From Candidatus Hinthialibacter antarcticus (GTDB lineage Bacteria > Hinthialibacterota > Hinthialibacteria > Hinthialibacterales > Hinthialibacteraceae), in contig JAVCCE010000075.1 of assembly GCA_030765645.1 (NCBI GenBank), positions 1 through 64,000 on the forward strand: a stretch of 64,000 nt of DNA, read 5' to 3'. The notes beneath the pieces were generated by a model. That model did no database searches. It was not told the DNA's origin and saw nothing but the letters and a program-made list of their open reading frames with translations. Below are positions 26,004 through 62,691 of this stretch, piece after piece; position 1 is the stretch's first letter, and each line of letters opens with the position of its first letter. The position numbers and the translations under genes were made by a program.

Positions 26004-26083
26004 GGCATGGGTGCAACTCTGAGAGCGCCTGTGTATAAGGGCCTGAAAGCCCGCACTGAAGCGAGCAGAGTCATACCCATGCC
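26004..26083 (+). repeat. 80-nt dispersed hairpin repeat, copy R1
   Basis: Outer arms GGCATGGGTGCAACTCTG and CAGAGTCATACCCATGCC pair over about 18 positions. The core has AGCGCCTGTG, an inner GGGC/GCCC hairpin flanked by GTGT/GCAC, and GAAGCGAG. The downstream flank, with TATCCAA and TTTACGG up to about 26136, is shared with copy R2 at 62612. Confidence 0.85.
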
Positions 26084-26306: not shown

Positions 26307-26326
26307 GGGCGCAACGCGTTGCGCCC
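26307..26326. repeat. 20-bp perfect palindrome
   Basis: GGGCGCAACGCGTTGCGCCC is perfectly self-complementary. Followed within 10 bases by further C-rich hairpins, it looks like part of a repeat element rather than a gene operator, since it lies about 200 bp from the nearest start codon. Confidence 0.75.
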
Positions 26327-26337
26327 GAATCCCCCCT

Positions 26338-26372
26338 GGCGCTTTCAGCGCCGTCCCCCCTTAAAAAGGGGG
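26338..26372. repeat. Double hairpin with C-run and G-run arms
   Basis: GGCGC-TTTCA-GCGCC is followed by CCCCCTT-AAA-AAGGGGG. C-run/G-run hairpins of this type are a common intergenic repeat in many bacteria. Function is unknown. Confidence 0.6.
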
Positions 26373-26527
26373 CTAAAAGTCTTAAGTCAATGACATTGGT
26401 TATTAGGGCGGCTATTGAATCTTGGGGCGCTGAGGTCAAACTTACCTTTATCAGCAGCTAGACTGCGATGTATCTCATCTCGTCTATGACATCAATGCGA
26501 CTTTCATCACAAAGGGGGAGGCACGGC

Positions 26528-26866
26528 ATGGATTATAATGCTCGCGCTGAAAACGGCGTTTTAGTCATTGATCTTCTCGAAGAAAATATCGACGCAGGCA
26601 ACGCCAAGCGCTTTAAGGTTGAGATACTGAAAGTGCTTGAGCCTTATCCCAAAGCAGTGCTGAATCTGTCTCCCATCCGTTTTATGGATAGTTCGGGTCT
26701 GGGCGCGATGATTTCTTGTTTGCGTCGTCAACAAGAAGCCGACGGTGATTTAAAACTTGCCGGGCTTAAGTCGCCTGCGCTGGATTTGTTCAGACTGGTT
26801 CGGATGGACCGCATCTTTGAACTCTACGATACTGTCGAAGACGCTGTTCAGTCGTATGAGGTTTGA
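26528..26866 (+). CDS. STAS domain anti-sigma factor antagonist-like protein
   Basis: 112 residues from the ATG that follows GGGGGAGG; a longer frame adds 20 unlikely residues. The STAS fold is clear: LVIDLLEENIDAGNAKRF, then AVLNLSPIRFMDSSGLGAMI with the candidate phospho-Ser pair 55-56, then LKLAGLKSPALDLFRLVRMD. SpoIIAA/RsbV-type proteins bind anti-sigma kinases when not phosphorylated. No kinase or sigma gene is adjacent, so the partner is elsewhere. The gene ends 10 bp before the left copy of the ispH promoter repeat, which suggests that it was once the direct upstream neighbour of ispH. Confidence 0.9.
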   Translation: MDYNARAENGVLVIDLLEENIDAGNAKRFKVEILKVLEPYPKAVLNLSPIRFMDSSGLGAMISCLRRQQEADGDLKLAGLKSPALDLFRLVRMDRIFELYDTVEDAVQSYEV

Positions 26867-26875
26867 TTTCGGATG

Positions 26876-26960
26876 CGGCATTGTATCGTTCCTCGGAGGC
26901 GTTTACACTAGTGAGATATGGAACCAATCAAGGAGACCGGTATGCTGCCTCAGGCTCCTG
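26876..26960 (+). repeat. Left copy of an 85-bp direct repeat: duplicated ispH promoter and start
   Basis: This segment matches 32740-32824 with about four mismatches. It contains the same TTGTAT-17-TACACT promoter, the AAGGAG site and the first codons of ispH. The frame here, from the ATG at 26918, ends at TAA 26963-26965 after 15 codons, while the right copy continues into full ispH. With the right copy it brackets the AT-rich litR-lipid module. Confidence 0.93.
26881..26909 (+). promoter_or_regulatory. Duplicated ispH-type promoter, now facing the regulator gene
   Basis: TTGTAT and TACACT are spaced by 17 bases, exactly as in the copy at 32745. If active, it would transcribe rightward, antisense to the regulator gene at 26969-27886. 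Activity is inferred from identity with the ispH copy. Confidence 0.5.
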
Positions 26961-26968
26961 AATAAAAA

Positions 26969-27886
26969 CTAACGGTTACTTTGCAACCCTTTCATCAATG
27001 CTACCAGTTCAATCATAGAATTCACAAAGAATACATTTTGGGTCTCGTCTGAAATGGACTGAAGATTTGCGCTCTCCCAAAATCGACCTCCAATCACTAA
27101 ATAGGCGCCGCATTTTTCTGTGGCTTCCGCCAGTTTTTTAATGTCTAATTTAATGCTGACTCCACGTTTTAAATAGCTGATGCTAAGCCAAACCATAAAG
27201 GGTTTGTGTTCTTTTAATGCGGTATGAAAGACTTCAAATGGCGTATTGGGCCCAAAATTTATCGGGGCAAACCCTTCGGATAATAAAGTCGTAGCGACCA
27301 GAAACGAAGGAACTATATAGGGATCACTTGAAGGCGCCCCTCCAAAAACGACTGGGGAATTTCGCTTTGTTTCAAACATCGCTTTAAAAACGCTTAAGGC
27401 GTTAATACAGATATCCGTCGCTCGATGTTCGACTCCAATGCCGTTCTCGTTATGCTTCCAGAGTTCTCCAATTCGTTCCATCGCATAGGGAATCGTATTG
27501 TCGCAAATTTCTGCAACGCTCATTCCACTTAGATATAGCAGCATGATGTAACCACGGGCTTTCTCTAACTCGCCGTTTTCTAAGAACGCATAGAAGCGGT
27601 CATTTTCTGTGCCGGGAACCCAAACTTCATTTGCGACATGCCGTAAGTCCGAAAATCCGAATATTTCAGGGTTCTCTAATTGAATTTTATTACTTCGTAC
27701 AAAGCGGATTGCTTCTTCCAGCGAAATTTTGCGGTGGCCTCCGATTGTCTTTATCGCTTGGATTTTACCGTCGTCAACCCAGCGTTTAACCGACGATTCG
27801 CTTCGATTGATTGCTGCTGAAAATTCTTTTGGGGACAGGATCGATCGCAATATCTTCAACCTTTTCGGATGTTTATCTCTTTGCAT
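26969..27886 (-). CDS. LitR/CarH-like regulator: helix-turn-helix plus B12-binding domain
   Basis: 305 residues from the ATG at 27886; ATGs at 27904 and 27976 are in frame, but the last would overlap the putative promoters. An N-terminal MerR/excisionase-type helix-turn-helix (LSPKEFSAAINRSESSVKRW, then GGHRKI) precedes a helical domain and a B12-binding fold. The CarH light-sensing motif W-x9-EH is present (W then KHNENGIGV then EH). In the B12 loop, CarH has ExHxxG; here it reads DPYIVP, so the cobalt-ligating His is Tyr. The His next to the Trp of the motif is Lys. It may be a B12-independent or altered sensor. It is divergent from the lipid operon at 28042, its likely target. Confidence 0.78.
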   Translation of the reverse strand: MQRDKHPKRLKILRSILSPKEFSAAINRSESSVKRWVDDGKIQAIKTIGGHRKISLEEAIRFVRSNKIQLENPEIFGFSDLRHVANEVWVPGTENDRFYAFLENGELEKARGYIMLLYLSGMSVAEICDNTIPYAMERIGELWKHNENGIGVEHRATDICINALSVFKAMFETKRNSPVVFGGAPSSDPYIVPSFLVATTLLSEGFAPINFGPNTPFEVFHTALKEHKPFMVWLSISYLKRGVSIKLDIKKLAEATEKCGAYLVIGGRFWESANLQSISDETQNVFFVNSMIELVALMKGLQSNR

Positions 27887-27934
27887 GAACGTTATTACAA
27901 CCATGCAAGGCGGCGTGAGGCTAATATATTTGTG

Positions 27935-27999
27935 ATTATAACTTGACTTTGTTACAATTCTAGGTACTTTATACACATTGAGTGAACGTTTATTCGTTC
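27935..27999. promoter_or_regulatory. Back-to-back promoters and inverted repeat between regulator and lipid operon
   Basis: The minus strand has TATAAT (27940-27935), giving a 5' leader of about 40 nt for the regulator. The plus strand has TTGACT (27943-27948) and TATACA/ACTTTA near 27966-27975. An inverted repeat GAACG-TTTATT-CGTTC lies at 27984-27999. The two promoters nearly overlap, so one bound repressor could silence both. All assignments are by eye. Confidence 0.45.
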
Positions 28000-28041
28000 G
28001 TTTTGGTTGTGGATTAAATACCAGAGCAAGGAAATGATGAA

Positions 28042-28665
28042 ATGAGTATGGTTAGGATCGCCGTTTTGTTCATTCTCATTCTAAGCGTCTCGATAGAAGG
28101 GCGGGAAACGATGCGTACAGTCGAAACCGAAACGGTTTTATTTGATTTTCAACACAAAGAAATGATCAATGTATTTTTCATTACCAATGATTCTGTAATG
28201 GGTGGAAAGTCTCAGAGTCGTCTTTCATGGAACGATCAAGGGCGATTGACATTTACAGGAGACGTTTCGCTTGAAAACAATGGAGGATTTGCGTCCTTTC
28301 GATCAAAAAATATTGATTTTGAATTGAAGGGCCAAAATTATCTAAGCGCAAGCATTATTGGAGACGGTAAGCGTTACAGGCTATCAATTGGAACAAACGA
28401 ACGCCAGAGCGGTGTTTATTACTATTTTGAGTTCGACACAAAGACGGATCAAAAAGAAACCATTGTTGCGCCATTGAAAAACTTTGTCGCAAAATATCGA
28501 GGCCGCACAGTCGGGAATGCGCCCATGTTGAAAGCAGAAAACATCGCGTCGGTCGGATTAATGATCGCAGATTCTCAGCAGGGTGATTTTTCGGTAGAAA
28601 TTGAATGGATCAAGGCGACATTTGATGCAAATAATGAGAATGAAAACCAGGAAAGAAAAAAGTGA
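28042..28665 (+). CDS. CIA30 family protein, secreted
   Basis: 207 residues. A signal-like hydrophobic N-terminus (VRIAVLFILILSVSI) is followed by the CIA30/NDUFAF1 signature FFITNDSVMGGKSQSRL and a beta-rich domain ending WIKATF. AAGGAA lies 8 bases before the ATG. In eukaryotes CIA30 helps assemble respiratory complex I; bacterial members outside that context are poorly understood and often sit beside lipid genes of this same set. It overlaps the next gene by 4 bp (GTGA), so the two are translationally coupled. It is the first gene of the AT-rich lipid operon. Confidence 0.8.
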   Translation: MSMVRIAVLFILILSVSIEGRETMRTVETETVLFDFQHKEMINVFFITNDSVMGGKSQSRLSWNDQGRLTFTGDVSLENNGGFASFRSKNIDFELKGQNYLSASIIGDGKRYRLSIGTNERQSGVYYYFEFDTKTDQKETIVAPLKNFVAKYRGRTVGNAPMLKAENIASVGLMIADSQQGDFSVEIEWIKATFDANNENENQERKK

Positions 28666-29930
28666 CAAAAAATAAACAAAAGATAGCGGTCGTTGGTGCA
28701 GGCGTTGCGGGCATTACTGCTGCGCATGTTCTTCAACGAGAATATGACGTAACAATTTTTGAAAAAAATAATTACTTGGGCGGCCATACCAATACAATCG
28801 TTATTCAAGACGGCCCAGACGCTGGCGTTGCGGTTGATACGGGATTTATCGTGCTTAATGACGAGACCTATCCGACCTTTCATCGCTTGCTTCAACAACT
28901 CGGTGCGCCGGTTCGCAATAGTGATATGTCATTTGGATTTCATTGTGAGAAAACCGGACTGCAATATTGCGGAGATAATTTGAATTCAATATTTGCGCAA
29001 AGAAAAAACCTATTGAATGTTCAACATTGGAAAATGTTATTTGATATTCAAAAATTCGGAAAAGTTGGGTGTGAACAATTAGAAAACAATAATATTGATT
29101 CACTTACATTAGGCGACTTTGTGCAGAAATGTGGTTTTTCAGACAGCTTTATTGAAAACTATATTGCTCCAATGGGCGCAGCCATCTGGTCTACGCCTAG
29201 TAAAGAGGTGATGCGTTTTCCTGCCAAAACATTTTTGGAGTTTTTTAAACATCATGGATTGCTTTCGCTTAAGCCGCCGCAATGGCAAACCGTTATTGGA
29301 GGCAGCCATACATACATCAAAAAATTTATTGAACAATTTAAGGGCCGCTTCAATTTAAATCATTCAATCAACAAAGTTGTTAGAAACAATAATGGCGTTA
29401 CGCTTGAATTATCCAATGGCGAGAAACAAGAATTTGATTGCGCCGTTATGGCGTCTCATGCAAATGAAACATTTAAAATTCTCAACGATCCAACGCCCGA
29501 TGAACAGAGATTATTAGGCGGTTGGAGGTACGTCAAAAATAAAGTCGTACTACATACTGATTCATCCGTCATGCCTTCCAATCATCGAGCCTGGGCTTCG
29601 TGGAATTATAAACGAGAATACATTGAAGATGGCAATAATGCGCTTTCAATGACCTATTATATGAACCGTTTGCAAGGGTTAGATTCAAAGAAGAAATATT
29701 TTGTTACATTGAACAGCCATAAGAAAATTGATCATAAAACGATAATCAAGGAAATCGAATATACACACCCATTGTATGATTTCGATTCTGTACACACGCA
29801 AAGTGAATTACACAAACTGAACGGTATAAACCATACATATTTTTGCGGGAGTTATTTTGGTTACGGGTTTCATGAAGATGCGGTCAAGTCAGGTCTGCAA
29901 GTCGCGAACCTGTTTGGTTTAGATTTATGA
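28662..29930 (+). CDS. FAD-dependent amine-oxidase-like oxidoreductase of the lipid operon
   Basis: 422 residues, GTG start overlapping the CIA30 stop. The dinucleotide-binding motif VVGAGVAGITAAHVLQ starts near residue 10, with EKNNYLGGHTNTI after it and a C-terminal FAD block YFCGSYFGYGFHEDA. This is the COG2907-type flavoprotein that commonly neighbours DUF1365 and Cfa genes; relatives are part of singlet-oxygen responses in photosynthetic alphaproteobacteria. The probable role is oxidation or desaturation of membrane acyl chains, which is inference. It overlaps the next gene by ATGA. Confidence 0.87.
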   Translation: MTKNKQKIAVVGAGVAGITAAHVLQREYDVTIFEKNNYLGGHTNTIVIQDGPDAGVAVDTGFIVLNDETYPTFHRLLQQLGAPVRNSDMSFGFHCEKTGLQYCGDNLNSIFAQRKNLLNVQHWKMLFDIQKFGKVGCEQLENNNIDSLTLGDFVQKCGFSDSFIENYIAPMGAAIWSTPSKEVMRFPAKTFLEFFKHHGLLSLKPPQWQTVIGGSHTYIKKFIEQFKGRFNLNHSINKVVRNNNGVTLELSNGEKQEFDCAVMASHANETFKILNDPTPDEQRLLGGWRYVKNKVVLHTDSSVMPSNHRAWASWNYKREYIEDGNNALSMTYYMNRLQGLDSKKKYFVTLNSHKKIDHKTIIKEIEYTHPLYDFDSVHTQSELHKLNGINHTYFCGSYFGYGFHEDAVKSGLQVANLFGLDL

Positions 29931-31900
29931 AATCAAAAATTTTTCATTGTCAGGTCATGCATGCACGTCTTCATCCAATGGAGCACCATTTTGTGTATCC
30001 GCTTTATATGTATGCTCTTGATTTGAATGAATTGGAGCGACTTGATAATGAAAACCCTTTGTTTGGATATAACCGCTTTCGGCCTGTTTCGATTTACGAT
30101 AAAGATTATTTAAACAAGGAAGACGGCTCGATTCAAACAAAGTTATTTACGCTTTTATCATTACATGGTTTCTCTGAAGAGATAAAGCAAGTCGTTCTAT
30201 TAACGTCGGCTCGGTATTTTAATTACGTCTTTAATCCAGTGAGTTTTTATTATTGCTATAAAAATGATGGATCGCTTGCTTGCGTCGTCGCAGAGGTGAA
30301 TAACACATTCAAAGAAAAGCATGTGTATGTTCTTTCAAGAAGCCAAGAGAGCAATTTGAAAAAATACACGCGCTATTCAGTTGATAAGCAATTTCATGTG
30401 TCGCCGTTTAATGATATGCAAGGGGCGTACGAATTTCATTTTGCGGATGTCACTGATTCAATCGATATCCATCTTGACCTAATGAAACAAGGCCAAGCGT
30501 CTCTTAAAACGCGGTTGTGGGGAAATACCGTTCCACTTACGGCAAAGAACTTGTTTTTTACTTTAATACAACAGCCATTTGTTCCCTGGTTTACAATGCC
30601 AAGAATCGTTTGGCAAGCTGCGAAACTCTATTATGGAAGGAAGTTAAAGGTGTATTCAAAACCCAATCCAAGCAATGTAATGACAGTGCGCCATGCTCAA
30701 ATGCCTTTGATAGACAAATGCTGCGCAATAATGATCAAAAAAGTTTTAACTAATGTTAAGAATGGTTGTTTGCAATTGATTCTAACTGACCATTCTGTTG
30801 AGTTTTATGGTGATTTACATTCAAGACAACGCGTAAGTATAAAAGTGAACCATTCTTGTTTTTTTCGCAAGGCTGTTTTGGGTGGAAATATCGGCTTCGG
30901 AGAATCGTATGTTGCTGGAGATTGGGATACGGATAATTTAACGAAATTACTTGTGTTTTTCTTGGAAAACCAAACTTATTTAAACAACTTTGTTTTAAGG
31001 TCTGCCTGGCTTGGACGTGCAGCGAATCGCGTTATGCATTCTTTTCGAAAAAATACTCTTGTGAGAAGTCGCGAGAATATTCTAGCGCATTATGATTTAA
31101 GCAACGATTTCTTTAAAATCTTTCTTGACGATACGATGACTTATTCATGCGCTCAGTTTAATAGTGAACAAGAAAACCTACAGCAAGGCCAGATCAATAA
31201 GATAAATTTAATGATTGAAAAAGCGAAAATTACCTCCAATGATCACGTTTTAGAGATTGGTTCCGGTTGGGGAAGTTTTGCGATTCAGGCGGTAAAGCAA
31301 ACTGGTTGCCGCGTTACAACAATCACGTTATCTGCTGAGCAACTCAAAATGGCAAGAGACCGTGTTAAAGAAGAAGGATTGCATGATCGGATTGACGTCC
31401 TGAATTGTGATTATCGTAATATGACGGGGCGCTTTGATAAAATTATTTCAATTGAAATGATTGAAGCCGTTGGCCATGAGTATTTGGGCGAGTATTTCAA
31501 GCAACTCGACAAATTATTAAATCCGGATGGGGCAGTTGTTATACAAGCAATTGCTGTAATAGATCAAAACTATGAATCATACAGAAGAGAGAGCGATTGG
31601 ATCCAGAAACATATTTTCCCTGGGGGCGTTGCGCCTTCATTACATGTTATTGCTGAAAATGCAATGAAGAATTCACGTTTTTTTATCGACCATGTAGAAA
31701 ATATTGGAATGGATTATGCTCGTACGTTGCGTGAGTGGAAACAGACATTTCTATCTAAAAAGAAAAACGTAGCGGATATGGGATTTGATGATGAATTTAT
31801 CCGAAAGTGGGAATATTATTTTTCTTATTGTGAAGCGGGCTTTCTCACTCGAATATTAAACACCTATCAAATTGTCTTTAAACGACCTGAAGTTCTTTAG
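29927..31900 (+). CDS. DUF1365 - cyclopropane-fatty-acyl-phospholipid synthase fusion
   Basis: 657 residues in one uninterrupted frame. Residues 1-240 are DUF1365 (HARLHPMEHHFVYPLYMYAL, FNPVSFYYCYKNDG, VSPFNDMQGAYEF, ending with the AAKLYYGRKLKVYSKP type tail). Residues 260-657 are a Cfa/MmaA-type SAM methyltransferase (AHYDLSNDFFKIFLDDTMTY, VLEIGSGWGSF at 441-451, ISIEMIEAVGHEYLG, IQKHIFPGG). These are usually separate adjacent genes. The enzyme should methylate an unsaturated acyl chain on phospholipid, giving a cyclopropane or a methyl-branched product. Base composition is AT-rich like its operon. The next gene starts 8 bp after the stop. Confidence 0.88.
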   Translation: MKSKIFHCQVMHARLHPMEHHFVYPLYMYALDLNELERLDNENPLFGYNRFRPVSIYDKDYLNKEDGSIQTKLFTLLSLHGFSEEIKQVVLLTSARYFNYVFNPVSFYYCYKNDGSLACVVAEVNNTFKEKHVYVLSRSQESNLKKYTRYSVDKQFHVSPFNDMQGAYEFHFADVTDSIDIHLDLMKQGQASLKTRLWGNTVPLTAKNLFFTLIQQPFVPWFTMPRIVWQAAKLYYGRKLKVYSKPNPSNVMTVRHAQMPLIDKCCAIMIKKVLTNVKNGCLQLILTDHSVEFYGDLHSRQRVSIKVNHSCFFRKAVLGGNIGFGESYVAGDWDTDNLTKLLVFFLENQTYLNNFVLRSAWLGRAANRVMHSFRKNTLVRSRENILAHYDLSNDFFKIFLDDTMTYSCAQFNSEQENLQQGQINKINLMIEKAKITSNDHVLEIGSGWGSFAIQAVKQTGCRVTTITLSAEQLKMARDRVKEEGLHDRIDVLNCDYRNMTGRFDKIISIEMIEAVGHEYLGEYFKQLDKLLNPDGAVVIQAIAVIDQNYESYRRESDWIQKHIFPGGVAPSLHVIAENAMKNSRFFIDHVENIGMDYARTLREWKQTFLSKKKNVADMGFDDEFIRKWEYYFSYCEAGFLTRILNTYQIVFKRPEVL

Positions 31901-31908
31901 ATAAAATA

Positions 31909-32694
31909 ATGAATCCATTTATGATTTTTCTTTTTTGTAGTTTACTTGTTTCCTTCATTATGCTTGTTGTATTTTTCATTCAATGGAAGACGAAGGATGC
32001 AAGCATTGTTGATGTAGCGTGGTCTGCAAATTTAGCAATCCTTGTTTTAATATACGCTTTTTTTCTCGATGGTTATGCGTTGAGACAAAATGTTTTGTTT
32101 GCATTGGTCTGCATTTGGTATATTCGTTTATCATTGCACTTGCTTTTTGATCGAGTCATGGGAAAAGAAGAAGACGGACGTTATCAAAGTATACGAAAAG
32201 AATATAAAGGGAATGTTCAATTCTTTTTTCTCGGTTTTTTTCAGTTACAAGCGCTGGCTGATGCGCTGCTTTCAATCTCTTTTCTTATTGTCGCAATCAA
32301 CCCCAAGCCATTTTTAGATGTTTTTGACGGTATAGCGATTGTATTATGGGCGCTTTCATTCACAGGAGGGGCAATCTCTGATTATCAACTTTCAAAATTT
32401 CGTTCAAATCCCCTCAATCGTGGGAAAACCTGCCGAGTTGGATTATGGCAATATAGCAGACATCCAAACTATTTCTTTGAATGGCTTCAATGGCTGGTGT
32501 ATCCATTGCTTGCGGTTGGTTCTCCCTATTGGTATTTAACGCTGCTTGCGCCTGCCATGATGCTATATTTTATTGTATTTGTTACGGGAATTCCGACATC
32601 AGAGACTCAGGCTCTCCGCAGTCGGGGAGGCGATTATCGAGATTATCAAAATACAACGAGTCCATTCATACCATGGTTTCCTAAAAATCGTTGA
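31909..32694 (+). CDS. DUF1295 (steroid 5-alpha-reductase-like) membrane protein
   Basis: 261 residues with about six membrane segments. The C-terminal family signature is clear: GLWQYSRHPNYFFEWLQW and a late PTSETQALRSRGGDYRDYQ. Members of this group reduce double bonds or methylate membrane lipids; DUF1295 commonly closes operons with the FAD protein, DUF1365 and Cfa. Here it is probably the last enzyme of the acyl-modification pathway. It lies 45 bp before the right copy of the 85-bp repeat, and so at the edge of the inserted module. Confidence 0.85.
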   Translation: MNPFMIFLFCSLLVSFIMLVVFFIQWKTKDASIVDVAWSANLAILVLIYAFFLDGYALRQNVLFALVCIWYIRLSLHLLFDRVMGKEEDGRYQSIRKEYKGNVQFFFLGFFQLQALADALLSISFLIVAINPKPFLDVFDGIAIVLWALSFTGGAISDYQLSKFRSNPLNRGKTCRVGLWQYSRHPNYFFEWLQWLVYPLLAVGSPYWYLTLLAPAMMLYFIVFVTGIPTSETQALRSRGGDYRDYQNTTSPFIPWFPKNR

Positions 32695-32739
32695 TTCGAT
32701 TGGCCCGATGACGGTCTGAAAATCTATTTGCCCGGAACA

Positions 32740-32824
32740 CGGCATTGTATCGTTCCTCGGAGGCGTTTACACTATTGAGATATGGAACCAATCAAGGAGA
32801 CAGGTATGCTGCCTCAGGCCCCGG
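32740..32824 (+). repeat. Right copy of the 85-bp direct repeat, with the functional ispH start
   Basis: It matches 26876-26960 with about four differences. It holds the ispH promoter, the AAGGAG site and the first ispH codons. The pair resembles attachment-site duplication or the scar of a recombination event that placed 5.8 kb of foreign DNA before ispH. Confidence 0.93.
32745..32773 (+). promoter_or_regulatory. Sigma-70-type promoter of ispH
   Basis: TTGTAT (32745-32750) and TACACT (32768-32773) are separated by exactly 17 bases, about 33 bases before the preferred start codon at 32806. Confidence 0.55.
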
Positions 32825-34047
32825 ATGTACCAGTTTATCGTAAAGGATTCGGCCTCAAAGAAGATGTTGCGGGCGAATTACGAAAAGAATACCGTAGCGC
32901 GATGATCCAACATTTGCGTGATAATGGCTTCGAAGTGCAAGTGGACAACCTGCGAATCTTGTTAGCCAAAGAGTTCGGTTTTTGTTACGGCGTTGACCGG
33001 GCGATTGATTACGCCTACGAAACGCGCCAGATGTTTCCCGACAAAACGTTGTATATCACCTATCAGATCATTCATAACCCGCGCGTCAATTCTAAATTGC
33101 GCGAAATGGGCGTGCGTTTTTTATCGGGCGGAGAAGACGAAAACTACAGCGTTGACGACGTGACGCCTGATGATGTGGTGATTCTCCCTGCGTTTGGCGC
33201 CAGCATGGAAAAAATGGATGAGTTGAAGCAAATCGGCTGTACGATGGTCGATACCACCTGCGGCTCAGTGATGCACGTTTGGAAGCGGGTGGAGCGCTAC
33301 GCGAAAGATAATTTCACGGCAATTATTCACGGCAAATATTATCATGAAGAAACCATCGCCACCGCCTCGCACGCGACAAAATTTAAAGACGGGAAGTACA
33401 TTATCGTTCGCGATGAAGAAGAAGCGCAGTTTGTTTGCGACTATATTCTCAACGGCGGAGACAGAGATATTTTCTTAAGGAAGTTTGAAAAAGCGATCAG
33501 CCCCAATTTTAATCCTGATACAGACTTGAAGTGCATGGGCGTCGCCAATCAAACTACCATGTTGAGCAGCGAGTCGCTTCATATCGCCAAGATGATTCAA
33601 AAAGCGATGGAAGACCGCTTTGGCAAGGAACACATCAAAGAGCATTTCCGCTCGTTTGATACCATTTGCAGCGCGACCCAAGAGCGCCAGGACGCCATCA
33701 TTGAATTGGGTTCCAAAAAACCGGATTTGATTTTGGTTGTCGGCGGCTACAACAGCAGCAACACCAATCATCTGTGTGAGATTGGTTTGAAGTATGGGCC
33801 TACATATCACATTAGCGATGTCGATGGCATTCTCTCAAGCGATGTGATTCGTCATAAACCCTTTGGCGAGAAAGAAGAAATTCAAACCGAAGGCTGGCTG
33901 CCGCAAGGTAAAGCGACGGTGGGCGTGACCGCAGGCGCTTCGACTCCTGATAAAGTGGTCGGCGAAGTGATCGACCGGGTGTTGGAATGCCGTGGATTTC
34001 GCCTGGAAGAGGTTTTTCAGAATGTGGCGCCTCTGCGGGAATCCTAA
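32806..34047 (+). CDS. ispH: 4-hydroxy-3-methylbut-2-enyl diphosphate reductase
   Basis: 413 residues from the ATG that follows AAGGAG by six bases; an ATG at 32782 adds eight residues but has no such site. The three iron-sulfur cysteines are present: Cys60 in EFGFCYGVD, Cys152 in DTTCGSVM and Cys288 in DTICSATQ. The length fits the long cyanobacterial/plant-type form rather than the 316-residue E. coli enzyme. It makes isopentenyl and dimethylallyl diphosphate in the last MEP-pathway step. Its promoter and first codons are duplicated 5.86 kb upstream. A carotenoid-type regulator and lipid genes now lie directly before it. Confidence 0.95.
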   Translation: MLPQAPDVPVYRKGFGLKEDVAGELRKEYRSAMIQHLRDNGFEVQVDNLRILLAKEFGFCYGVDRAIDYAYETRQMFPDKTLYITYQIIHNPRVNSKLREMGVRFLSGGEDENYSVDDVTPDDVVILPAFGASMEKMDELKQIGCTMVDTTCGSVMHVWKRVERYAKDNFTAIIHGKYYHEETIATASHATKFKDGKYIIVRDEEEAQFVCDYILNGGDRDIFLRKFEKAISPNFNPDTDLKCMGVANQTTMLSSESLHIAKMIQKAMEDRFGKEHIKEHFRSFDTICSATQERQDAIIELGSKKPDLILVVGGYNSSNTNHLCEIGLKYGPTYHISDVDGILSSDVIRHKPFGEKEEIQTEGWLPQGKATVGVTAGASTPDKVVGEVIDRVLECRGFRLEEVFQNVAPLRES

Positions 34048-34190: not shown

Positions 34191-34862
34191 ATGGCAAACA
34201 TGAAGGGCAAACTCATCGCCGTCGAAGGACTCGACGGAGCGGGCAAGTCAACCCAGGTCTATCTATTGAAACGTTGGATGGAATTGTCCGGCGTTAAAGT
34301 CTTCTTTACGGAGTGGGACTCGTCTGTCTTGGTTAAGCGCGCGACCAACAAAGGCAAGAAACGTAACCTGCTTACTCCAACGACATTCTCGCTGATTCAT
34401 TGCACCGACTTTGCCGACCGCTATGAACGTCAGGTGCTGCCGCTGTTAAAGGCGGGGTATATTGTTCTTTGCGACCGGTATATTTATACCGCGTTCGCTC
34501 GCGATGCCGTGCGCGGCTGCGACAAAGAATGGGTGCGAAAACTCTATAGTTTTGCGACTCCGCCGGATATCACTTTCTATCTTAAAGCGCCGCTTTCGAT
34601 TGTTCTCGACCGCGTGATGGCCGCCAAGCCGGAGTTTCAATATCACGAGGCGGGGCTGGACCTGAATTTGTCCGACGACACCAACACCAGTTTTTCGCTG
34701 CTGCAAAAAGAACTGCAAAAAGAATATGAAGGCATGATTTCTGAATATAAATTTCAGGTTGTGAATGCTGGAACGCCCATCGAAGAGTTGCAGGAACAAA
34801 TGCGTGAAGTTGTATCAAAGCGCATCGACTTTTCCAACTACCAATGGAGGACAAAAGCATGA
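34191..34862 (+). CDS. tmk: Thymidylate kinase (first of a tandem pair)
   Basis: 223 residues. The P-loop GLDGAGKSTQ is intact, followed by a DRYIYT block (CDRYIYTAFARDAV) typical of dTMP kinases. The lid region lacks a strongly basic LID motif. The family phosphorylates dTMP to dTDP, essential for DNA synthesis. The ribosome-binding site is weak; ATGs at 34191 and 34200 are both possible. The stop overlaps the start of a second, related gene by ATGA, so both are made together. Which of the two is the housekeeping enzyme cannot be proved here, but this copy has the complete nucleotide site. Confidence 0.8.
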   Translation: MANMKGKLIAVEGLDGAGKSTQVYLLKRWMELSGVKVFFTEWDSSVLVKRATNKGKKRNLLTPTTFSLIHCTDFADRYERQVLPLLKAGYIVLCDRYIYTAFARDAVRGCDKEWVRKLYSFATPPDITFYLKAPLSIVLDRVMAAKPEFQYHEAGLDLNLSDDTNTSFSLLQKELQKEYEGMISEYKFQVVNAGTPIEELQEQMREVVSKRIDFSNYQWRTKA

Positions 34863-35563
34863 AGTCCTCGACGAAATCCAAGAAAAAATTCTATGGACGC
34901 GGCATTCCCGCCGTCAATTTGAAAGAGCTGAGCGGCAAATTGATCGCAATCGAAGGCGCTGACGGCTCGGGGCGTTCGACGCAAATCAACATGTTGCGCG
35001 ATGGTTTAGAAAAAGAGGGCTACGCGACCGTACACGTTGGGCTGAGCCGCTCGACTTTGGTGAGTGAGGAACTCGAAAAAGCCAAAGACGGCAATGTGTT
35101 GGGGCGCCGTACGATGGCGCTGTTTTATGCGACCGACTTTTGCGACCAACTCGAAAATGTTATTATCCCTGCGCTGCGTTCGGGGTATATCGTCATTGCC
35201 GACCGCTATATCTATACGCTGATGGTTCGTGATATTGTCCGTAAACTTGAATCGGATTGGATCGAGTCGCTATATGGGATTGCGATCATACCCGATGCAG
35301 TATTTTATTTGCGCGTAAGCCCTGACAATTTACTGGAGCGTACGTTTCAAAAGAGCCGTACGCTCGATTATTGGGAATCGGGCATGGACATCGGGCTTTC
35401 GCTCGATATGTTTGAAAGTTTTAAAAAATATCAGCGGCTGATTCAAATGGAATTTGCGAAAATACAAGACCGCTATGATTTTGAAGTCATCAATGGAAAC
35501 CGGTCTGCAACCGCAATTGGGAAAGAGTTGCAGGAAAAAGTGTTGGCTGTGTTGTCAGAATAA
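34859..35563 (+). CDS. Thymidylate kinase-like paralogue with altered P-loop
   Basis: 234 residues from the ATG that overlaps the upstream stop (ATGA) and follows GGAGGACAAA; an ATG at 34844 is less likely because it overlaps that site. It is related to the upstream gene along its length, with IADRYIYTLMVRDIV. The P-loop reads GADGSGRSTQ, so the phosphate-binding Lys is Arg39 (codon CGT). A basic N-terminal tail of about 25 residues (KSSTKSKKK) precedes the fold. It may be a non-catalytic partner of the first kinase or have a new substrate; this is inference. Confidence 0.78.
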   Translation: MKSSTKSKKKFYGRGIPAVNLKELSGKLIAIEGADGSGRSTQINMLRDGLEKEGYATVHVGLSRSTLVSEELEKAKDGNVLGRRTMALFYATDFCDQLENVIIPALRSGYIVIADRYIYTLMVRDIVRKLESDWIESLYGIAIIPDAVFYLRVSPDNLLERTFQKSRTLDYWESGMDIGLSLDMFESFKKYQRLIQMEFAKIQDRYDFEVINGNRSATAIGKELQEKVLAVLSE

Positions 35564-58650: not shown

Positions 58651-61600
58651 ATGAGAAAACTAATTGTATTAATAATGGCCTCGTTGATTTCTATCCCTGC
58701 TGTTTCGCAAGAATGGATGACTAGGCTTTTTATTCCCCCCATAGGTAAAACGTTCGAGGAAGTTCGTGACATCAAGAGGTCAGATGATGACTCTATCTGG
58801 TTCGCATCTTGGGGAAACGGTATTGCATGCTTAAAAGAAAACACTTGGCATGTCTTTACTACAAGAGAAGGGTTACCGTCAAATTTTGTTCCTTCAATAG
58901 AAGTTGATCAAGATGAAGTTTGGGCGGTTACTGATGAAGGTATTGTACATATTTCACAAGATGGTGTTATTCAAACCATAAACCAAAATGCCCTTTCCAT
59001 TATCGATGAAGAATCCTTCAATGAAGTCAAAAGAATGAACAATGGGGAAATCTGGTTTGGGTCTGACAGCGGAAGCATCATTGCATGTACTGGTCTTTCG
59101 GGGACTCCCAGTATTAATCTTGGTGGGGTTCCGATTATTTTTATGAACCGAAAATGGTTCATCGTCAAACCTCCTGCCAATTCAAGTGGAACGGCTATTT
59201 ATGAAATATTTGAAGATAAAGATCAAAAAATATGGGTCGCAGCAGATAGAAACGGACTCTATTTTCTTGAAGACAACGAATGGAAGCGAGCGGAGATTGA
59301 TTTTCTGGAATATGATCGAGTACGTCAAATCGCTCAAGATTCAGATGGAGCCTTGGCGATAACAGGGGGCGCATTTTTATCTTATGATGGCGAGAATTGG
59401 GAGGAACACAAAAGTGTCAATCCTTACACCCTAGAAACTCTGCCTAACGGTCAATTAATTTTAGTTGATCATTCACACGTTTACTATCAAGAACAAAATG
59501 AATGGATAGAAGTTCCTTTTCCTATTGACGCAGGAAATCCGACGCCAAGAGTATTATATTTCGCCAATAATAATCACGGTTGGATAGGGACAAAAGAAGG
59601 CGTCATCGAAGTCATCCGAAAAAGGTTTAAACTATCCACTCAAATAGAAGAAGTTACAACGGGTTCAGACTTTATAGCAAAACCCAACTACCCTCCATTA
59701 GCAATCAATAGCACTCATGAGATACTTCAATTTAGCGACCCGTCGTGGAAATCATTCTTGCAACTTCCTCTAAGCGAATCGTCGATATCACCATTTTTAT
59801 CAAGTGTTGTTAATGATAGATTTTGGGCTTTTACAGGTTCGGCTTTTTATGAGATTTCAATTTACGATAAGAAAATTGTTAAACAAATACCAAAGCCGGA
59901 AGATTTTTCAATTATTGGATTGCTGCATGCCGCTGATAACCGTCTCTATGCTTATTCCAATACTGAAATTTATTTAAATGAAAATGATCAATGGATACCT
60001 TTTGTAGCAAATAATAATCCCAATTCTCAAGATATCGTATTTTTATCACAACAACATGATGGTGCGTTATTGGTTTGTCGAACAAATTGCGTAGAGATTT
60101 GGAAATCAAACCAATTAGCGTCGACTATCAAAATTGACGAGGCAACGGACAATCATCCTTTGACATTTGCATGTCAATCAACAGATGCGCGCATCTGGTT
60201 GGGTACTAGAGGCCTTGGGGTATTTATATGGGATGGTGCTGAATTAATAAAAACAACAACTTCTGATGGTTTATTAAGTAACCGAATTGTCCAATTTTTT
60301 GAAGATTCATTTGGAACCGTATGGCTAGGTACAGAGCATTTAGGTCTTTCGTCTTACAAAGATGGTCACTGGATTAATTATTCTCATTCACAGGGTATTC
60401 CTAGTTCTCAACTAAACTCAATTGGAGAATATCCAGAAGGTACAATTTGGGTAAGTACATTAAAAGACCAAATCTATTCTTATACCAGAGATCGACAACC
60501 ACCCTATACAGTCATTGAAAAATCTCCTGAATCCATTCCATACAATAGTTTTGGCATTTTCTCGTTGGATGGATACGACAAATGGAATCATACTGAAAAA
60601 GAAAAAATCGTTTTTTCATGGAGAATCATTCCCTATCTCAATAAAAATGGAGCGATTGAGTGGTCTCCTTTTAGCCCGGAAAAATCAGTGAGTACTCCAT
60701 TGGCTCTTCCTCCAGGTAAATACCGGTTTGAAGTAAAAGCCGCTGATATGGATAGAAACATTGATTTGACTCCTTCAAGTCATGATTTTGTCATCCTTCC
60801 ACCCCCAATTACATCAAGAGTTTGGTTTATTTTACTTATCACTGCACTATTATTATTAACTTTTTTCATGTTTATCAGCGCGTTTTTCTCAAAAAGAAAA
60901 CTCGCAGTTTATGCAAACAACCTTGAAAAAGAAGTCGATAAAAGAACAGCAGAAATAACAAGTTCCAATCAACAATTAAAAAACGAAATTAGCGAAAGAA
61001 CCGAACTCCAAGAAACCTTGGAGAAAAATGAACGTACGTATCGAATGGCGATTAAGGCAGCTGATGCTGTCCCATATTATAGAAAACATAACTCTGAGCA
61101 CTATGACTACATCGGAGAAGGACTATTTAGAATTACTGGGTGCCATCCAGATGAATTCACAAATTCCATCTGGAAATCGTTAGAGATTGATCGAAACAAT
61201 TATCATCTCATTCAAAAACGCGACAGCAATGATCAAGAAAACCATAGTCAAGCGGATATCAAGATTCAGTCAAAGACTGGTGAGTTGAGATGGGTATCTG
61301 AAACATCTCTGCAACTAAATAACGATCAAGGGCAACCTCTTGGCGTACTTGGTTTGTTTCAAGATATAACTGAGAGAAAACGTATGGAAGAAGAACTCCT
61401 GAAATCCAGAAAACTAGAATCAATAGGTTTATTGGCTGGTGGAATCGCCCATGACTTCAATAACATGCTAACAGCCATTTTAGGAAACATATCGTTAGCA
61501 AGAGTTTTATGTGAAGGAGACGATAATCTCTATAAATACTTAACAAAAGCAGAGAAGGCGTCTTTACGGGCTCAAACTTTAACCCAGCAACTTTTAACTT

Positions 61601-62529
61601 TCTCAAAAGGAGGAGCGCCAGTTAAAGAAGTAATATCCATTCCAGACCTGGTAAGGGAAACCGCATCATTTACGTTAAGAGGTTCAAACGTAATATGCGT
61701 CTACGATATTAATGAAGATGTCTGGACATTAAATATAGATAAAGGCCAAATATGTCAGGTTATTCAAAACCTGTTGATCAACGCAGATCAAGCGATGCCG
61801 GATGGAGGAACACTTGAAATTGGAGTTCACAATGCCTTTATTGAAGAAGGCCAATATCAAGAACTACCATCAGGAAACTATGTAAAAATATTGGTCCGTG
61901 ATTATGGAGCGGGGATTCCTGAAGAGAATCTTACAAAAATTTTTGATCCTTATTTCTCTACGAAACCCAAAGGAAATGGTTTAGGTTTGGCAACTGCTTA
62001 CTCGATTATTAAAAATCACAATGGCCTCATCTTCGTTGAATCGATTGTCAATAAAGGTACTGTTTTCACGATTCTCCTACCCGGCAACAAAACATCAGTT
62101 CCATCTATCCAGGAACCTTCTGAGGTTCATTCGAACTCTAGTGGTATAACAGTATTGCTAATGGATGATGAAGAAATGGTAAGAGACATCACAGGCACTA
62201 TGTTAGAGCATCTCGGCTATAAAGTGAATTATGCAAAAGATGGAAAAGAAGCGATCGATCAATATCAAATTACATATAAATCCGACAATAGAATTGACTG
62301 CGTCATAATGGATTTAACGATCCCTGGAGCAATGGGGGGTAAAGAAGCGATTCAGCACCTTAAAGACATTGACCCCAATGTAAAAGCAATTGTTTCAAGT
62401 GGATATTCCAATGACCCCGTCATGGCAAATTATGCTGACTATGGGTTCTCAGGTGTTCTAAATAAACCCTATCAAATAGAAAAACTGGATGAAGCGTTAA
62501 AAAAAATTATAAACAAGATCAATGAGTAA
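58651..62529 (+). CDS. Hybrid sensor histidine kinase with propeller sensor and receiver domain
   Basis: 1292 residues. Signal peptide (IVLIMASLISIPAVSQ); then many two-component-propeller units (IWFASWGNGIACLKEN, IWLGTRGLGVFIWDG, VWLGTEHLGLSSYKDG); a Y_Y_Y domain near 640-715; one membrane helix near 727-748; coiled coil; PAS domain about 800-905; HisKA with phospho-His934 in GGIAHDFNNMLTAILGN; ATPase with NLLINADQAMPDGG and KGNGLGLATAYSIIKNH; receiver domain with phospho-Asp1221 in DCVIMDLTIPGAMGG. Unlike Bacteroides HTCS proteins it has no DNA-binding tail, so a separate output partner is needed. The gene is AT-rich compared with its neighbours and stands alone. The propeller may sense a polysaccharide. 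Confidence 0.92.
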   Translation: MRKLIVLIMASLISIPAVSQEWMTRLFIPPIGKTFEEVRDIKRSDDDSIWFASWGNGIACLKENTWHVFTTREGLPSNFVPSIEVDQDEVWAVTDEGIVHISQDGVIQTINQNALSIIDEESFNEVKRMNNGEIWFGSDSGSIIACTGLSGTPSINLGGVPIIFMNRKWFIVKPPANSSGTAIYEIFEDKDQKIWVAADRNGLYFLEDNEWKRAEIDFLEYDRVRQIAQDSDGALAITGGAFLSYDGENWEEHKSVNPYTLETLPNGQLILVDHSHVYYQEQNEWIEVPFPIDAGNPTPRVLYFANNNHGWIGTKEGVIEVIRKRFKLSTQIEEVTTGSDFIAKPNYPPLAINSTHEILQFSDPSWKSFLQLPLSESSISPFLSSVVNDRFWAFTGSAFYEISIYDKKIVKQIPKPEDFSIIGLLHAADNRLYAYSNTEIYLNENDQWIPFVANNNPNSQDIVFLSQQHDGALLVCRTNCVEIWKSNQLASTIKIDEATDNHPLTFACQSTDARIWLGTRGLGVFIWDGAELIKTTTSDGLLSNRIVQFFEDSFGTVWLGTEHLGLSSYKDGHWINYSHSQGIPSSQLNSIGEYPEGTIWVSTLKDQIYSYTRDRQPPYTVIEKSPESIPYNSFGIFSLDGYDKWNHTEKEKIVFSWRIIPYLNKNGAIEWSPFSPEKSVSTPLALPPGKYRFEVKAADMDRNIDLTPSSHDFVILPPPITSRVWFILLITALLLLTFFMFISAFFSKRKLAVYANNLEKEVDKRTAEITSSNQQLKNEISERTELQETLEKNERTYRMAIKAADAVPYYRKHNSEHYDYIGEGLFRITGCHPDEFTNSIWKSLEIDRNNYHLIQKRDSNDQENHSQADIKIQSKTGELRWVSETSLQLNNDQGQPLGVLGLFQDITERKRMEEELLKSRKLESIGLLAGGIAHDFNNMLTAILGNISLARVLCEGDDNLYKYLTKAEKASLRAQTLTQQLLTFSKGGAPVKEVISIPDLVRETASFTLRGSNVICVYDINEDVWTLNIDKGQICQVIQNLLINADQAMPDGGTLEIGVHNAFIEEGQYQELPSGNYVKILVRDYGAGIPEENLTKIFDPYFSTKPKGNGLGLATAYSIIKNHNGLIFVESIVNKGTVFTILLPGNKTSVPSIQEPSEVHSNSSGITVLLMDDEEMVRDITGTMLEHLGYKVNYAKDGKEAIDQYQITYKSDNRIDCVIMDLTIPGAMGGKEAIQHLKDIDPNVKAIVSSGYSNDPVMANYADYGFSGVLNKPYQIEKLDEALKKIINKINE

Positions 62530-62611: not shown

Positions 62612-62691
62612 GGCATGGGCGCAACTCAGTGAGCGCCTATGCATGAGGGCCTGAAAGCCTGCACTGAAGTGAACAGAGTTGTACTCTTGCC
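62612..62691 (+). repeat. 80-nt dispersed hairpin repeat, copy R2
   Basis: The arms are GGCATGGGCGCAACTC and GAGTTGTACTCTTGCC (with G-T pairs and a few mismatches); the core has GAGCGCCTATGC, GGGC-CTGAAA-GCCT, GCACTGAAG. The flank ATTGACAAATC on the left is shared with R0, and TATCCAA-TTTACGG on the right (to about 62730) with R1. Confidence 0.82.

Follow-up and report, generated by a model that had tools for sequence, protein, structure and literature searches.

The window analysed here is a 64,000-nt stretch of the genome of Candidatus Hinthialibacter antarcticus, in which an AT-rich module lies between a STAS-domain gene and ispH, the gene for 4-hydroxy-3-methylbut-2-enyl diphosphate reductase (Table 1). 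The module consists of a regulator gene and of four co-directional genes that lead up to ispH, and it is bordered on either side by a copy of the ispH 5' region.

Table 1. Genes and other features in and around the module (positions are those of the window)
Feature	Position	Strand	Assignment or remark
STAS-domain gene, left neighbour of insertion site	26528..26866	+	Pfam STAS 1.2e-15
Left copy of ispH 5' region	26876..26961	+	truncated frame, TAA at 26963
AT-rich inserted module	26962..32739	.	GC 0.390, about 5.8 kb
LitR/CarH-like regulator	26969..27976	-	Pfam HTH_17, B12-binding_2
CIA30-domain protein	28042..28665	+	Pfam CIA30 1.4e-40
FAD-dependent oxidoreductase, UfaD-like candidate	28662..29930	+	Pfam Amino_oxidase, NAD_binding_8; domain level
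DUF1365 (UfaO domain) fused to CFA-family methyltransferase (UfaM-like candidate)	29927..31900	+	Pfam DUF1365 (PF07103) 3.5e-78; CMAS (PF02353) 1.6e-84
DUF1295 / steroid 5-alpha-reductase-like membrane protein	31909..32694	+	Pfam DUF1295 7.3e-65
Spacer, last module gene to right copy	32695..32739	+	45 nt
Right copy of ispH 5' region	32740..32825	+	promoter and start of working ispH
ispH	32806..34047	+	NCBIfam NF009911 equivalog

Furan fatty acids are made in Rhodobacter and Rhodopseudomonas by UfaD (an NAD/FAD-binding desaturase), UfaO (DUF1365) and UfaM (a methylase) (PMC7380195). The module resembles this UfaM-UfaD-UfaO pathway in that an FAD oxidoreductase, a DUF1365 protein and a CFA-family methylase are encoded together, and judged by its domains it looks like a furan-fatty-acid cluster in which UfaO and UfaM are fused. 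It is unlike the pathway in that DUF1365 and the methylase form one polypeptide, that DUF1295 and CIA30 genes are added and that the product is a predicted one. The fused protein has 657 aa; similar full-length fusions are found in five of the compared genomes (G002, G004, G173, G257, G021), and the two parts are separate genes in G011 and G020.

The regulator resembles the light-responsive LitR/CarH regulators in combining a helix-turn-helix with a B12-type sensor domain and in having lipid genes beside it; regulators of this kind adjoin ufaM in Pseudomonas, as well as lipid genes (PMC9758184). Its best solved relative in the PDB is 8jbs, and CarH (5c8d) was matched as well. Its score with the NCBI CarH model is 29.2 bits, far below the cut-off of 400, and DPYxxP stands where the cobalamin-coordinating DxHxxG would be expected, i.e. 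Tyr takes the place of His. The regulator is thus unlike class I of LitR/CarH, as DPY replaces DxH within its full B12-binding-type domain, and unlike class II, which keeps the four-helix bundle only. Among the closest homologues, three of four also have DPY (G004, G011, G112) and the fourth has DFY (G013), and two more distant ones show DLY or DPY. Since the cobalamin-binding His is missing, B12-based light sensing is not to be assumed, and the label of a light module given in the preliminary description has to be considered weak and unproven. These proteins may represent a subfamily of regulators that bind B12 differently or not at all.

The two copies of the ispH 5' region align with 82 of 86 bases identical (95%) and start 5864 nt apart; the four mismatches had been described correctly, while the length is 86 nt, one base more than the 85 bp first given. 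In a search of the whole 5.15-Mb genome, one copy retrieved the other with E = 1.3e-33 and exactly two copies were present, and none was found in the 13 class relatives searched. No other long repeat pair occurs in the window. We further took 460 kb from the same genome, in stretches, as a sample for the comparison of repeats and GC content: nearly all other direct repeats of at least 40 nt in it belong to dispersed palindromic families beginning with GGCATGGGTRCAACTCTG... or CCCCCCTGGCGCTTTCAGCGCC..., the exception being one non-palindromic direct-repeat pair on contig C40. A dispersed repeat element, common across the genome, is ruled out for the pair at ispH by its two copies genome-wide. 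A draft assembly of 78 contigs leaves some room for error, but that an artefact or a chance similarity produced the pair is extremely improbable: the E value between the copies speaks against chance, in view of their four differences a collapse or mis-joining is unlikely, and the two stand in the interior of a single 78-kb contig. Dispersed elements proper are also seen in the window, namely a palindromic, MITE- or REP-like one with many genome copies (GGCATGGGTRCAACTCTG...CAGAGTTGYACCCATGCC, at 26004-26083, 1-30 and 62612-62691) and a member of a second family (CCCCCCTGGCGCTTTCAGCGCCGTCCCCCC, at 26320-26375) that was seen in other contigs of the genome.

Both copies contain a -35 box (TTGTAT), a 17-nt spacer, a -10 box (TACACT), AAGGAG before an ATG and the next codons, which agrees with the earlier account of promoter, ribosome-binding site and first codons. 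A TTG-16/17-TA...T layout (in the TTG-17-TANACT form) precedes ispH in all six family genomes, and by eye a GGAG-type sequence stands ahead of the second ATG in each of them. From this shared promoter layout and Shine-Dalgarno (SD) sequence it follows that the duplicated stretch is the promoter and start of ispH. The right copy continues, as had been proposed, into a complete ispH (543.6 bits against NF009911, cut-off 440; 64-79% identity inside the family). An in-frame ATG at 32782 lies 24 nt upstream of the one at 32806, and the distance from the -10 box to the first in-frame ATG is 0-8 nt in the six family genomes. With the -10 box so near, the second, SD-preceded ATG is probably the true start in all six, so that 32806, and 26942 in the left copy, are the likely ispH start positions. 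As ispH retains its full promoter and start, the module need not be involved in its expression. Downstream of ispH, two adjoining thymidylate-kinase-like genes (34191-35563, + strand) were noticed, a pair also present in the relative G001.

By its sequence, the left copy is a relic of an ispH start with intact promoter motifs, which are directed into the regulator gene, convergent with them, at its 3' end. Its frame stops after 15 codons, as first described, if counted from the first ATG (26918), and after 7 codons from the SD-preceded ATG. Identity is spread evenly along the 86 bp, covering promoter, leader and codons with no short core. None of the four differences falls in the -35, -10, SD or start codon, and those within the reading frame leave the amino acid unchanged. 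Taking the first ATG as start, p = 0.044 for all four differences being silent and p = 0.011 for the three coding changes being silent; with the SD-preceded ATG as start the pattern is not significant (hand estimate, p about 0.07-0.14). The silent differences fit, if weakly, two functional ispH alleles.

The composition of the insert sets it apart from its surroundings. Its GC content compares with 0.507 in the rest of the window and lies 4.3 standard deviations under the mean of 0.519, the lowest of all same-size windows in the 460-kb sample, and GC3 is 0.32-0.42 in its genes against 0.56-0.65 in most neighbouring genes (STAS, 0.48). The preliminary description of some 5.8 kb of AT-richer DNA with a regulator and four genes is borne out by these values and by the gene content, and the comparison of GC and codon use with the flanks that it proposed came out as lower GC and GC3 in the insert. 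A second AT-rich patch of roughly 36-42% GC (58651-62529, + strand) encodes one 1292-aa hybrid two-component protein with Reg_prop propeller, PAS, HisKA, HATPase and receiver domains; no repeat of at least 20 nt flanks this patch.

Homologues of the module genes are GC-rich in most genomes of the relatives, and, in answer to another of the proposed checks, the same gene set is found there at other loci: on contig C81 in G002, on C42 in G004 (with the regulator homologue on C34), and, as a whole set including regulator and CIA30, away from ispH in G011. The FAD oxidoreductase and the DUF1365-methylase are 51-52% identical within the family, against 64-79% for ispH, and are thus no nearer to their family homologues than to those from other phyla, where identities to the closest genomes, and between these, are 46-54%. 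The G002 copy groups with a genome of another phylum, in trees where most forks are weak. These identities do not support a vertical descent of the module within the family, the trees being weakly resolved, and they are what separate horizontal acquisitions would give. As for a source, the insert's regulator had no match on plasmids, and the DUF1365-methylase gene was matched on 284 plasmid records, all below 60% identity, so that no donor was found.

The site before insertion can be seen in G004, the closest relative compared, which belongs to the same family and has an ispH 79% identical to the one here. Its gene order (OGDH, a sulfite/nitrite reductase-like gene, a hexapeptide-repeat protein, orf294, STAS, ispH) is the same as in our window, and its STAS homologue, 41% identical, lies directly upstream of ispH: the distance from the STAS stop to the SD-preceded ATG of ispH is 201 bp with no gene between, i.e. 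an empty site. A relative with STAS directly followed by ispH and without the module, as the preliminary description had asked for, thus exists, though the empty site was seen in this one relative only. In the regions taken from the other four family genomes, ispH is not preceded by a STAS homologue, so that these speak neither for nor against; further ispH loci in contigs of other genomes included no congener and none with the module upstream of ispH. Empty site and foreign composition together back the earlier proposal that the module was inserted between STAS and ispH, with the full ispH start at its right end, and we regard a foreign insertion carrying an ispH scar as very probable. The ispH promoter of G004 is only partly similar to the 86-nt repeat, and given the 95% identity between the two copies here, the second copy came from this genome or from a congener.

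The 45-nt spacer ahead of the right copy gave no significant match to the STAS-ispH spacer of G004 (shuffle p 0.25-0.4). Neither this spacer nor the one to the right of STAS can be assigned to a particular event, which would suit a history of two unrelated steps, the insertion of the module upstream of ispH and a separate local dispersed duplication of the 86-bp piece. Such a history is improbable in our view, as the two copies enclose the module almost exactly and occur nowhere else in the genome; independence would be a coincidence.

Another candidate explanation is an integrase-type element inserted at the ispH 5' end, and the preliminary description had compared the locus to islands that integrate at tRNA genes. 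Two genes, dusA and prfC, are known to take up integrative elements at their 5' end, with promoter and start restored (PMC8409611), and the present locus resembles them in that a conserved housekeeping gene was entered at its 5' end and regained its promoter and start. However, none of the proteins encoded in the 5.8 kb is an integrase, in line with the earlier statement that none is present, and none of the five tyrosine integrases of the genome is on this contig (C75, no PF00589 match). At dusA, the 5' end brought by the element differs from that of the host outside a core (PMC8409611), whereas here all 86 bp, promoter included, are near-identical, and elsewhere in the class the module is not at ispH. 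The lack of a tyrosine integrase on the contig and the near-identity beyond a short core also leave the likeness to tRNA-gene islands unsupported; a tRNA scan of the window found no tRNA, the target of insertion being ispH, and an Rfam scan gave no matches. We therefore consider an integrase-type element very unlikely.

Ordinary recombination probably made the insertion. A horizontal transfer would have brought in the module, with its own regulator, and placed it between STAS and ispH; the event may have taken place here or in a close congener. In the incoming DNA the module would already have been joined to a short ispH promoter and start homologous to that of the host, and RecA-type recombination at this homology would have let it in. 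Entry could have taken two forms: a single crossover of a fragment that had become circular again, or the integration of a linear fragment of which one end was homologous and the other illegitimate. The module would thereby come to lie before an intact ispH, and at its other end a truncated ispH 5' end would be left. An incoming ispH start very like that of the host is required, so that the source was probably a congener. A variant that is not separable from this one would begin with a larger ispH duplication, its left copy trimmed later to 86 bp. A partial duplication of the target gene brackets the foreign DNA and the site is empty in G004, both of which fit a single-crossover or one-sided-homology mechanism, to which we give an even chance.

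A precedent comes from E. coli, in which linear DNA with one homologous end was in part degraded, ligated to a circle and integrated by a RecA-dependent single crossover (PMC3240628). Of 60 clones, 56 had a partial duplication of the target gene, which measured 109-950 bp in the 14 that were sequenced. Foreign DNA beside a target gene, a bracketing partial duplication and no need of an integrase are common to both cases. In contrast, those experiments used about 1 kb of homology, while the duplication here measures 86 bp and belongs to a past, inferred event. The 86 bp are short for a RecA-dependent crossover, which counts against the single crossover. The form with one homologous and one illegitimate end recalls homology-facilitated illegitimate recombination, which typically deletes target DNA where a duplication is found here. 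Short microhomology would be expected at an illegitimate joint; at most two shared bases were seen at 26960-26961. The genome encodes a Competence-domain (ComEC) protein, as do most bacteria.

Alternatively, the duplication might have arisen in situ during the insertion: at a break with long staggered ends, or by template switching in repair, an 86-bp piece of the host's ispH 5' region would have been copied as a foreign fragment was captured, giving what amounts to a long target-site-like duplication. This would account for two near-self copies and for a single 86-bp stretch with sharp edges, and needs no donor in which the module already adjoined ispH. We nonetheless think it unlikely. We know of no transposase-type duplication of 86 bp, and Ku is lacking in this genome and in five family members, so that the classical, Ku-dependent end-joining route seems absent and was rejected, and an end-joining account is weakened.

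Returning to recombination at ispH, a highly improbable extension would make the module an integrase-less mobile cassette, with the ispH promoter and start as homology arm, which loops out and re-enters at ispH by general recombination. If this were true, ispH would be rebuilt each time and the module genes would be joined to ispH transcription.

The kind of event described here is already known, and the fused Ufa enzyme and the Tyr-variant regulator are of secondary interest. The locus is a well-preserved footprint of the gain of a gene cluster without an integrase in a little-studied uncultured lineage. Three traits mark its scar: the DNA is foreign, a relative shows the site empty, and the start of an essential gene is present as a partial copy. 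Environmental genomes could be screened systematically for such scars. The cargo also suggests transfer of furan-fatty-acid genes, together with LitR-like regulators, between phyla, and it draws attention to a subfamily of regulators in which the cobalamin-binding His has been lost.
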